From the NCBI RefSeq assembly GCF_003264935.1, contig NZ_QLOE01000006.1:1-64000 (forward strand): a stretch of DNA of 64,000 bases, in the 5' to 3' direction. This DNA comes from Methanothermobacter tenebrarum (lineage in GTDB: Archaea; Methanobacteriota; Methanobacteria; Methanobacteriales; DSM-23052). Below are positions 19,714 to 24,178 of this stretch, piece by piece. Position 1 is the stretch's first letter, and the number at the start of each line of letters is the position of its first letter. The notes beneath the pieces are model-generated. The model saw only the letters and a program-made list of their open reading frames with translations, did not search any database and was not told the DNA's origin. The position numbers and the translations under genes are program-made.

Positions 19714-19807
19714 TATGATGAAATTTCCCTCCCTTTGAGAAAATTTTCCTTGCCTATCTAAATATATATACTATTGACAATAATTTAGGAAGGAGAAGGT
19801 GATAATT

Positions 19808-20278
19808 TTGGAGAGTAAAATAAAACGATGGCTCACTGAAGAAGGTCTTCTAGGGCAAATAGTAGACGATGAAAATGCCAATTTCCATTTCATTGTAAAT
19901 TACCCAGAAGACCATGTAATAGATGTCATACAACCAAAGGATAAAGAGGATCTAGTATTAGTTGCATGTGCCACGAGTGTAAGCCCAGAGCATTTATCAA
20001 AGATCCGGGAATTAAGCGAATCCAAGAGGGAAGAGTTTCTTTGGCAGGTCAGATTTTCCTTGAACAAGTTTCTCGTGGACTTCCAATTAGAACATCCAAG
20101 AAACATCCTAGAAAGTTATCTTGTAACTGATGAGATTTACAATGATGCATTAACTAAAGATAGGCTAATATCTACTATCAAAAAAGTATTTAAAGCCAAA
20201 TTACATGTCCTATGGCTCATACAGAAGAAATTCGGGGAAAAAAAGGATGAATTTCATGAAGACACAATGTATGTCTAG
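19808..20278 (+). CDS. DUF2299-like protein beside the replication origin
   Basis: A protein of about 156 residues with N-terminal ESKIKRWLTEEGLLGQIVDDENANFHFIVNYPEDHVIDVIQPKD, typical of the archaeal DUF2299 family, whose fold resembles type III secretion chaperones; function unknown. I choose TTG 19808, which has GGTGAT four bases ahead, over GTG 19799. The stop codon touches the first origin recognition box. A TATA-like run lies near 19762-19771. Its constant position by the origin could reflect synteny only. Confidence 0.65.
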   Translation: MESKIKRWLTEEGLLGQIVDDENANFHFIVNYPEDHVIDVIQPKDKEDLVLVACATSVSPEHLSKIRELSESKREEFLWQVRFSLNKFLVDFQLEHPRNILESYLVTDEIYNDALTKDRLISTIKKVFKAKLHVLWLIQKKFGEKKDEFHEDTMYV

Positions 20279-20401
20279 AGAGAGGGGTGCATTTCAAGTG
20301 TAAAAATTGAGAGAGCCCCCCATCATGAATGAGAGAGGGGTGCATTTCAAGTGTAAAAAATTTCTTGTGGGTAATTTACACTTGAAATCTATCTGACTGC
20401 A
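20278..20401. repeat. Left cluster of origin recognition boxes (3 copies)
   Basis: Three copies of the 13-mer TTACACTTGAAAT: minus strand at 20291-20303 and 20344-20356, plus strand at 20376-20388. The two minus copies belong to a perfect 29-bp direct repeat (20278-20306 and 20331-20359) that includes a pyrimidine-rich tail, read on the minus strand as GCACCCCTCTCTC. The third copy has a diverged tail (CTATCTGACTGC). The 13-mer matches the mini-ORB recognised by Cdc6-1 of Methanothermobacter. Confidence 0.85.
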
Positions 20402-21855
20402 ATGACATCCCCCCACAAATGAGGGATTACTTAGGTCTAGGTACATTATTTTATCTGAAAAATTCTTGAGATTCTCCCCAGCATTGCTCAACTATGAGCT
20501 GTATTCTTTGATTATTATTAATATTCTGAGAATACCACGAAAAAATTTAAAGGATTGCTTTATCTCCCCATTTTAATACTTGCTATCTTTTATTACTTGA
20601 AGAATTATTATAACTCCTATGCGAATTTCATTGGGTCATGCCGTCTATGTGGTTAGAGCTAATTAATAACCTTCACTTTTCGACTTGTAAAAAAATTGGC
20701 TTTCTTTTTTAACACTGAAAAATTATAGCCTGCAAAAACTGGAAAATAATATAAGCATGGGTTTTTGTGTTTTTCCATCGGAAATACATCTATTATCAGG
20801 TTTTTTCATATAATTTTTTTGATAGGCGATTACTATTATTTTTGGTTTTTTTATTGCTTTCTTCTTGGATTATTTTTTTCCCAAGATAACTTCAAGCATG
20901 CACGTATCTTAACCTTTTATTTCATTTTGTTGACTTTTTCCTATCTTTGTAAATCTCTTAGTGGATATTCATTCCTTAATTTTATTAAGTTTGATTTACT
21001 TTGGTGTAATGTTGTTCATAATCTCTCTTGGCATTTGATAGGTTCAATGTTGGTTTTTACTCCGATCACTTCCATTCCCCATTTCTTTTTGAGTTTGAAT
21101 TACCCTGTTCGAGGGTTTCTCCTTTTACTCCTTCAAAAAGTTGATGATGGGGACTAACCCTCAATTTTTTAATTATGTAAGAAGATACAGTGTAGGAACT
21201 ATTGGAATTTATAAGTTCCATGAGAGTTTAACTTTCATTTTTATCTCATTTGGGCTTGAGGAGGCCATCTTTAGAATTTCCAAGTCTTTATATACATAAC
21301 AGCGGGCGCATACCTCCAAATTATTTGATTCATTTCATATTGCAAATTACAAAGTCTATATAACTTATCTATCTTCTTTTTTTAACCTATATAATCTGAA
21401 ATTATTACAGAAATTAAATAGATAGGATTATCCTTTTTATTGTAAACTTCCATATAATGAGGAATTTAATATGGGCTAATAAAAATAGATATTTCACAAA
21501 TTGGAGGATAGGACCATTTATTTATACTTCAACGGATTTTTAGAACATATGGATGCTCTTGGCACATTAACAAATGGTAACTGTTATATTTCCTAAATCT
21601 AAATCGAATTTTTTGTTTTATCAATTTTGAAATGAATTTTGTGTGCAATTTTTAGATCTTGAGGATTTCTCATCGTGCAAATAATTTTATTCATGGAGCT
21701 TCTACATCATCCTTTACAAAATTTATTCTTCTTTTTTATTGACCTTTTTCTGAATAATATGATACAATTTTTTGTGATTTTGTTCACTGGCTAATTTCAG
21801 CGAGCTGGCATTCTTTATCCTAAGTGTTTTGAAGAATTACTATTTTTTATGGGTG
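20402..21855. other. AT-rich core of the replication origin (probable unwinding region)
   Basis: About 1.45 kb with long A/T tracts and no convincing gene. A 130-codon frame at 20765-21157 is dominated by Phe/Leu/Tyr from T-rich DNA and has no ribosome site, so I treat it as noise. The region lies between opposing ORB clusters and is the natural place for duplex opening. I found no further exact ORB copy inside it; weak partial matches occur near 20594 and 21626. Confidence 0.65.
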
Positions 21856-22008
21856 TTACACTTGAAATGTATCTCTCTCTGTTTTGGGCTGGGGGGGTAG
21901 TTATTTGTTACACTTGAAATGTATCCCTCCCTCTATCGTAATATTTTTATGGCATATTTTAATAAAAAGTTTTATGTAATATGTTTGATGAAAAGTTACA
22001 CTTGCAAT
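21856..22008 (+). repeat. Right cluster of origin recognition boxes (3 copies)
   Basis: Plus-strand copies of TTACACTTGAAAT at 21856-21868 and 21908-21920, each followed by a pyrimidine-rich tail (GTATCTCTCTCTG and GTATCCCTCCCTC), and a one-mismatch copy TTACACTTGCAAT at 21996-22008. They point away from the AT-rich core, as the two minus copies on the left do. They lie upstream of the cdc6 start, so Cdc6 bound here could also repress its own gene. Confidence 0.85.
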
Positions 22009-22116
22009 ATAACTGGAATTTCATGTGTTTTAAAATCAGGTGGGGGTACATTATCACATCATTTTGATTTTTACAAGTGGGACCAGAGCTCTAAAAATTT
22101 TATTAGAAGTGGTATC

Positions 22117-23262
22117 ATGAATGTGTTTGATGAATTGGAGGGTAAGAAGTCGGTTTTTAAAGATAGAAGGTTTTTGGATCATAGGTTTTTACCGGATAAG
22201 CTACCTCACCGTGAAGAACAAATAAGGGCTATAGCTAAGTATTGGGTAGAGGCACTTAAGGGTGTTACACCTCCAGATATTACGATCTATGGGAAGACAG
22301 GAACTGGTAAAACTGCAGTGGCTAAATTTGCCATGAAACAGCTCAATGAAGCATCTAAGAATTCTAATGTCAATGTGAGGACTGAATATATACGTTGCAC
22401 AGATTACACTACAGAGTATCAGGTTCTGGCGAGATTGTGTCAGCAGTTTGGAAAGGATGTTCCTTATCGTGGATGGACAAAGGCGGAAGTCATAAATACC
22501 TTTAGAAGCCTTTTTAAAAAGAATGTGTTTGGACAGGACCTCATACTCATAGTAGTGCTTGATGAAATAGATATTTTACTTAAAAATGATGGAGATGGTC
22601 TATTATATACTCTTACACGTACTGATAATGTCTCAATACTTTCAATTAGTAATTATGTAGATTTTAAAAAATTCATAAAACCGAGGGTAAGGAGCAGTTT
22701 AAGGGATCGTGAGATTGTTTTTCCCCCATATGCCGCTCCACAATTAGTTGATATACTTAATGAGCGTTCTAAATTATCATTCAATGATGGGGTGCTTGAG
22801 GACGATGTGATACCATTATGCGCTGCTTTAGCCGCTAGAGAAGAAGGTGATGCTCGTTATGCTCTTGATCTTTTAAGAACTGCTGGAGAAATAGCAGACG
22901 AACAAGGTTCTGATGTTGTTAAGGGAGAATTTGTAAGGGAAGCAAAGGAATATATTGAACATAACAAGGTCACTGATATTATCATGACACTTCCAAGTCA
23001 ACAACAAAGAGTATTAGAGGCAATACTTTATCTCACCAAACGAGGTGAAGAGATAACATCAGGCAGGCTTTATGAAGTTTATAAGAAAATATCACAAGGA
23101 GATTTCGTCTCCTATAGGCGAATATTTGATTTCGTTAACGAATTAGAATTACTAGGACTCATATCTACCAACACTGTTTCAAAGGGCAGGGGAAAGGGCA
23201 GAACCAATATTATAAAGTTGCAGTGCGATACATCAGTCCTTGAAAACGCCCTTTGGATGTGA
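22117..23262 (+). CDS. cdc6: Orc1/Cdc6 origin recognition protein
   Basis: A 381-residue initiator ATPase. The AAA+ part has Walker [16 protein letters not shown], Walker [13 protein letters not shown], sensor [12 protein letters not shown], and the arginine/lid region; the N-terminal [16 protein letters not shown] box is typical of Cdc6-1. A winged helix at the C-terminus (about 290-380, [15 protein letters not shown]... [19 protein letters not shown]) binds the ORB repeats found just upstream. The open frame extends back to 21919 through the ORBs, but ATG 22117 begins the conserved protein ([12 protein letters not shown]) and is the sensible start. It binds origin DNA and loads MCM. Confidence 0.95.
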
Positions 23263-23263
23263 C

Positions 23264-24178
23264 CTATTTTATAAGCGCTTTTAGGAGGGCCATTCTCACT
23301 GGCACGCCATAGAATGCTTGTTGGAAATATTTACACTGGGGCATAGTATCTACATCAACTGATATTTCATCTACGCGGGGGAGTGGATGCATTACTATAA
23401 CATCTTTACCATTTAGCATTTTACCATCTATTCGATATGCACCTTTGATTTTAGAATATTCTTCTGGATCTGGGAATCTCTCCTTTTGTATTCTTGTCAC
23501 ATAGAGTACATCCACATCATCTATAACCTCTGCAATCCTAGTGGTTTCATGGACAGATATACTTTGTTCTTTGAGATCATGGATAATGTCACGTGGCATT
23601 TTAAGTTCTTTTGGGGATACGAATATCATATCTACATTGAACATGGCAAGTGCATATGCGAGTGAGTGAACTGTCCTACCATATTTAAGGTCGCCGATTA
23701 AAGCTACTTTTAAGCCTTCTATGCCATTAAATATCCTTTTCATTGTATAAAGGTCGAGGAGTGTCTGTGTAGGGTGTTGGCCTGCTCCATCCCCGGCATT
23801 TATGACTGGTATATCTATGATGTCTGAAATGTAGCGGGCTGCTCCTTCTGCGTTATGTCTTATTACGATTGCATCAGCATAGCATGCTACCACTCTTGCA
23901 GCGTCTGCTAGTGTTTCACCTTTGGCGGCTGAACTTTCAGCGGCTTCTGAGAAGCCTATCACACTACCTCCTAATCTTTTCATGGCTGCTTCGAATGATA
24001 GTCTTGTCCTGGTTGAGGGTTCATAGAACATCATGCCTAGTATTTTACTTGACAAGATCTTTGAGGTCTTTTGGGAGCGGGCGATGGGCTCCATTTTTTC
24101 TGCTTCTTTTAATATGAATTCGATGTCTTCTTTTGTGAAATCTTTTATTGATATGACATTTTCTAATTGGAAGCCCAT
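23264..24178 (-). CDS. pyrB: Aspartate carbamoyltransferase catalytic chain
   Basis: A 304-residue catalytic subunit that forms carbamoyl-aspartate in pyrimidine synthesis. The carbamoyl-phosphate site [21 protein letters not shown] lies near 52, [17 protein letters not shown] near 79, [16 protein letters not shown] near 130 and HPLPRVDEI near 265, all in family order and length. GGTGATCAA precedes the ATG. The regulatory chain pyrI is not in the window. The 3' end is one base from the convergent cdc6 stop. Confidence 0.95.

Follow-up and report, generated by a model that had tools for sequence, protein, structure and literature searches.

The window, by which we mean the whole 64,000-nucleotide stretch of DNA from the thermophilic methanogen Methanothermobacter tenebrarum analyzed here, contains cdc6-1 (orc1) preceded by a long intergenic region, upstream of which lies a gene for a DUF2299 protein (PF10061). 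The intergenic region carries six Cdc6 boxes (ORBs), which are listed in Table 1 together with the other features of the locus. An initial annotation had described six boxes here, five exact and one with a single mismatch, with two minus boxes and one plus box on the left and three plus boxes on the right; all six were found again at the same places and on the same strands. The perfect 29-bp direct repeat ascribed to the two left copies was likewise confirmed at 20278–20306 and 20331–20359. Exact copies of the 13-bp core TTACACTTGAAAT occur five times in the 1,467,867-bp draft genome (20 contigs), all of them in this cluster and confined to 1.63 kb upstream of cdc6, where one near-copy is found as well. 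When up to one mismatch to TTACACTTGAAAT was allowed, 13 sites were detected genome-wide versus 4 for a control read backwards. The best PDB relatives of the cdc6-1 product were 2v1u, annotated as a Cdc6 homologue, and 2qby, and the RR pair of the winged helix was conserved in both alignments. We take 2v1u to be Aeropyrum Orc1 on ORB DNA and 2qby to be Sulfolobus Orc1-1/Orc1-3 on DNA.

Table 1. Features of the cdc6-upstream locus, with positions counted from the first letter of the window.
Feature	Position	Strand	Remarks
Upstream gene, DUF2299 (PF10061)	19799–20278	+	stop codon touches tail of box 1
Extended ORB 1	20278–20303	−	core 20291–20303 exact, tail GCACCCCTCTCTC
G6 run, linker between boxes 1 and 2	20316–20321	− (strand of the boxes)	
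Extended ORB 2	20331–20356	−	core 20344–20356 exact, tail GCACCCCTCTCTC; 53 bp from box 1
Strand-switch point, minus to plus boxes	20357–20375		19 bp; seen in the sequence; arrangement kept in 4 genomes
Extended ORB 3	20376–20399	+	core 20376–20388 exact, tail NTATCTGACTG; faces AT-rich stretch
AT-rich, non-coding, weakly conserved spacer	20414–21855		candidate unwinding region
Extended ORB 4	21856–21881	+	core 21856–21868 exact, tail GTATCTCTCTCTG
G7 run, linker between boxes 4 and 5	21891–21897	+ (strand of the boxes)	
Extended ORB 5	21908–21933	+	core 21908–21920 exact, tail GTATCCCTCCCTC; 52 bp from box 4
ORB 6, degenerate, without tail	21996–22008	+	TTACACTTGCAAT, one mismatch; 88 bp from box 5
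cdc6-1 (orc1)	22117–23262	+	381 aa; AAA+, Cdc6 lid, C-terminal winged helix (Cdc6_C)
Convergent downstream gene, aspartate/ornithine carbamoyltransferase family, likely pyrB	23264–24178	−	

Four tailed copies had been counted initially, and their pyrimidine tails stand (GCACCCCTCTCTC twice, GTATCTCTCTCTG, and GTATCCCTCCCTC); box 3 is tailed too, however, so that the extended boxes number five. The tail of box 3 is of a different type, CTATCTGACTG, which is kept in all four genomes of the genus, and we counted this box as the fifth extended one because it scored 25.9 bits in a matrix trained without the genus of the window. Boxes 1, 2, 4, and 5 match TTACASTTGAAATNNAYSTCTC to within one mismatch, and box 6 fails to do so. 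The G runs in the two linkers are reminiscent of the oriC1-enhancing, G-rich inverted repeat of Haloarcula (PMC3936714). The run between boxes 1 and 2 has a similar counterpart in G003 and G002 and a weaker one in G001, and that between boxes 4 and 5 has a similar counterpart in G003 and G001 and is absent in G002. Outside the origin, the sole strong tailed box found in the window's own genome (TTTCACTTGAAATGCATCTCTTAT, 25.7 bits; L008, G000:C4:3208) lies where a P-type cation ATPase gene begins, and with one mismatch allowed, the three congeners showed no counterpart of it.

Twenty genomes were compared in their cdc6-upstream regions, with the cores listed without use of the tail. In all four groups, the columns 3′ of the core were informative, and the strongest were tail positions 3 (A), 5 (C/G), 7 (C), and 9 (C), with about 0.8–2.4 bits; flanking columns were mostly near zero, and those past tail position 13 and most of those upstream of the core were approximately at background. 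Pyrimidines make up 87% of tail positions 4–13 in the genus and 77–78% in family f3 and the basal f2 genera. The initial annotation had made its reading of the tail depend on conservation in orthologous origins, and the same boxes, with tails, were indeed present at the orthologous loci of the congeners, of f3, and of the basal f2 genera. A 24-column matrix (24 bp) trained solely on boxes of the other two families placed boxes 4, 5, 2, 1, and 3 at the top of the window (36.1 to 25.9 bits), followed by a site of 5.0 bits, with box 6 at 3.1 bits. In the complete congener G002, the five cluster boxes also ranked first with this matrix, and a perfect 13-mer without a tail at 294,406 left the top ten once the tail was scored. 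Exact matches to TTACASTTGAAATNNAYSTCTC were detected in 93 of the 151 genomes of the order, representing 15 of 19 genera, and the reversed control gave 0 matches in all 151. The G-rich string that follows the core on the core strand in classical G-string ORBs was not found at the boxes of the window.

Judged by this conservation, the tail is a real part of the box and common across the order Methanobacteriales. The functional site would be an extended ORB of about 24 bp with the tail consensus NNAYSTCTCTC, to which Cdc6 is predicted to bind; the supposition of a box longer than 13 bp, initially put at about 26 bp, is thus supported. A tail lying outside the binding site might also be conserved only through the copying of neighboring boxes, that is, by concerted evolution. 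Neighboring boxes in one genome differ by a mean of 1.4 of 26 bases and orthologous boxes between genomes by 3.1, which fits copying within an arm, and the perfect 29-bp left repeat points in the same direction. The tail is conserved, however, over three families and on both strands, and its conservation peaks at positions 3, 5, 7, and 9 and ends after 13, whereas copied segments would keep the linker too; we hence regard copying as a highly improbable explanation of the tail. In the f3 origins (L077–L083), the two arms were observed to use different box subtypes, which are distinguished at core position 6 and tail positions 4–5. A G stands at core position 6 in 18 of 38 boxes on the minus arm versus 2 of 39 on the plus arm, a comparison of related boxes and genomes for which Fisher p-values overstate independence. 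At tail position 5, most minus boxes have C and most plus boxes G. The f3 boxes of one arm look homogenized inside a genome.

A simple core with outward-facing boxes on both sides, as first proposed, does not describe the layout of the window. Outward tails are supported across the order, but the tail of box 3 points into the supposed core. The boxes run −−++++, and boxes 2 and 3 diverge from 20357–20375; as box 3 is a plus box that faces the core, the strand switch lies here, and the AT-rich stretch therefore separates boxes of the same strand, 3 from 4–6. The order of minus boxes on the left and plus boxes on the right was found without exception in 14 of 15 genomes from the window genus, f3, and the f2 genera g15 and g16, and one exceptional box occurs in G147; the tails are thus directed outward from the strand switch. 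This two-arm layout was not seen in some Methanobrevibacter-type genomes and in G142. Among the 96 same-strand neighbor spacings of up to 130 bp, 64 fall at 49–54 bp and 50 at 51–53 bp, the commonest spacing, which corresponds to approximately five DNA turns; a test for helical phase across the full set of spacings was uninformative. Related families likewise have outward tails and boxes about 52 bp apart. Furthermore, boxes 4, 5, and 6 follow one another at intervals of 52 and 88 bp that match those of the last three f3 boxes (about 54 and 88 bp), which suggests that the long AT-rich stretch lies inside what is the right arm in f3 origins.

The AT-rich core of 1.45 kb in the initial annotation was recovered as a spacer of 1442 bp with 70.7% AT (61.5% for the whole window), though it sits between the same-strand boxes 3 and 4. 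Across the four genomes of the genus, the spacer is 1.44–1.81 kb long and 67–71% AT, and its identity to the window is 40–64%, versus 70–84% for the arms and 83–94% for the flanking coding sequence. In three of the four genomes, its plus strand is rich in T, and Orc1 of A. pernix favors T-rich single strands (PMC8287685); by this analogy, a link between T-richness and melting may be offered as only a suggestion. A hidden gene was considered for the spacer and rejected: no Pfam family matched the open reading frame at 20765–21157 (130 aa), and in the other three congeners, open frames there do not exceed 74 codons. A structured RNA was likewise rejected, as no Rfam match came near the gathering score.

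Box sequence, tail, polarity, spacing, and cross-species conservation, all computed here, lead us to identify the region with high confidence as a chromosomal replication origin of the oriC1 type, which would be bound by the Orc1/Cdc6 protein encoded beside it through extended ORBs of about 24 bp. The comparison across the order thus supports the replication origin with Cdc6 boxes that had been proposed from the window. Four features of an oriC1-type origin were found: an adjacent orc1/cdc6 initiator gene (22117–23262), an intergenic region with several ORB or mini-ORB repeats (six boxes), ORBs of opposite polarity around AT-rich DNA, though box 3 faces the spacer, and an orthologous locus conserved in families f1, f3, and basal f2. 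The boxes could instead serve mainly as an autoregulatory or Cdc6-titrating element of the cdc6 promoter and not as an initiation site. Such a role would suit box 6, which precedes the cdc6 start by about 110 bp and whose place beside the gene is kept across families in the comparison of cdc6-upstream regions; extended boxes also occur away from cdc6 in Methanobrevibacter-type genomes, and ORB-rich titration regions have been described in Haloarcula (PMC3936714). Autoregulation, however, needs less than two divergent arms around AT-rich DNA. M. thermautotrophicus is accepted to have a single origin (PMC4010727), and in its presumed genome (G148), none of the four exact extended boxes lies outside the homologous cluster. 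We consider a mainly regulatory or titrating role highly unlikely.

The boxes away from cdc6 in the Methanobrevibacter-type genomes (genus g10) form a second array of 3–4 extended boxes spaced about 43–55 bp apart, which is located downstream of a conserved aminotransferase gene and faces an inverted box about 4.7–5 kb away, with the tails pointing inward. It was recorded at loci L216, L217, L220–L222, L224–L226, and L230, with G083:C11:27056-27239 and 32020, G102:C28:21953-22083 and 26726, and G103:C24:171582-171692 and 176315 as examples. This array is a candidate for a second origin or a Cdc6-titrating site. A single extended box was also observed at the same intergenic position in two species (L227, G046:C1:30257; L234, G103:C13:75666), about 9.5–10.5 kb from cdc6, with an amidase-like gene on one side and another conserved gene on the other.

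Cumulative GC skew, named in the initial annotation as a check on the origin, gave a divided answer. In the presumed M. thermautotrophicus genome (1,751,377 bp), the first 1.15 Mb was sampled and had its maximum at approximately 377–397 kb. This point and the box cluster beside cdc6, at 1.278 Mb, are diametrically opposed, which agrees with an origin at the cluster as far as this partly sampled genome extends. In the complete congener G002, the skew was strongly bipolar, to a degree reached by 0 of 5000 permutations. Its extrema were located at 353 kb and 1,032 kb, but the boxes lie at 87.5–89.3 kb, about 265 kb from the extremum, and the expected sign change at the boxes was seen only within about 20 kb. 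The gene order of G002 is extensively rearranged relative to that of the presumed M. thermautotrophicus, which may explain the mismatch; we regard it as weak evidence against an origin. Extrema so far from the cluster and so highly significant could also mean that the initiation site has moved, so that the cluster would be a minor origin or a conserved relic and the genus would have its main origin at the skew extremum, about 350 kb in G002. Against this, G002 was found to be without a second box cluster, the arms, spacing, and tails stay conserved while the spacer diverges, and rearrangement can displace skew. A moved initiation site hence appears highly unlikely, and the cluster beside cdc6 is retained as the origin.

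In archaeal Orc1 structures, the monomer sits asymmetrically on the ORB, and opposite ORBs around the unwinding region are expected to direct the lid/winged-helix faces inward and to have MCM loaded between them (PMC6742236, PMC12141716); a review (PMC6742236) was the source for box polarity in archaea with G-string ORBs. The AAA+ domain contacts the G-string in classical ORBs (PMC3936714). From the sequences, we infer a comparable scheme for how Cdc6 binds and contacts the tail, how MCM is loaded, and where the DNA melts. The 13-bp core would be read mainly by the winged helix of Cdc6, and the tail NNAYSTCTCTC would stand in for the G-string, with a probable AAA+ contact, because it occupies the same place relative to the core and so most likely does the same job. 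The asymmetric box would set the polarity of Cdc6, with tails and AAA+ bases outward and the winged-helix/lid face inward, so that Cdc6 on both arms could load MCM head-to-head onto the AT-rich DNA between, and boxes about 52 bp apart, or roughly five helical turns, would place successive Cdc6 molecules on one helix face. In the genus, the arms may have been pulled apart by an AT-rich stretch whose presence is kept and whose sequence is not, and the possible places of MCM loading are the 19-bp switch point and the long spacer. The joint proposal, that the AAA+ domain of Methanobacteriales Orc1/Cdc6 reads a pyrimidine string, that phased arrays of about 52 bp are polar loading arms, and that these are split in the genus by a 1.4–1.8-kb AT-rich stretch into a bipartite origin, is speculative and, taken as a whole, rather doubtful.

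Majernik and Chong are said to have found in 2008 that binding by M. thermautotrophicus Cdc6-1 needs a conserved sequence 3′ of the original box. The oriC of this species (L083), which was studied by Capaldi and Berger (2004) and by Majernik and Chong (2008), as cited in PMC4010727, resembles the window in its cdc6-adjacent locus, 13-bp core, tail, minus-left/plus-right order, and spacing of about 52 bp. The presumed M. thermautotrophicus genome contains 11 boxes with a 103-bp strand-switch gap, whereas the window contains 6 boxes with a 19-bp switch point and, unlike that genome, a 1.44-kb spacer between plus boxes. The Methanobacteriaceae ORB motif of Ori-Finder 2, TT[TA]CACTTGAAAT[GTA]T[CT][CG]TC in the accessible part of the source (PMC4164010), consists of the core and the start of the pyrimidine tail, as in the window boxes. 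The motif thus already runs past the 13-mer, and the novelty initially seen in the tail falls away. As printed there, it ends after 6 tail bases, apparently one base short in register, and unlike the present definition, it is given without the CTCTC continuation, polarity, or spacing. Classical G-string ORBs of Sulfolobus, Methanomicrobia, and haloarchaea, as far as they are described in the accessible parts of PMC4164010 and PMC3936714, share with the window boxes an asymmetric build, with an extra element on the same side of the core, and opposite polarity around AT-rich DNA; the extra element is C/T-rich on the core strand in the window but G-rich in the classical ORB. A G-string ORB search in the phylum reached almost only Methanobacteriales and yielded 3 scattered matches, and two Archaeoglobales loci contained no ORB at 5 mismatches.

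The site is hence an ordinary, well-preserved origin of a known kind, with an unusually long and fast-changing spacer. Three points go somewhat beyond the published motif in the form accessible in its source: the complete 24-bp definition, the rule for box spacing, and the behavior of the spacer in the genus. A 24-bp initiator site with polarity and spacing gives a sharp, testable definition for an order of methanogens, and its tail separates true origin boxes from chance 13-mers, which would improve origin calling in draft genomes. Since the composition of the tail is opposite to that of the G-string, tail swaps could show how the AAA+ domain of Cdc6 reads DNA, and the long, unconserved spacer of the genus makes the site of melting directly testable.
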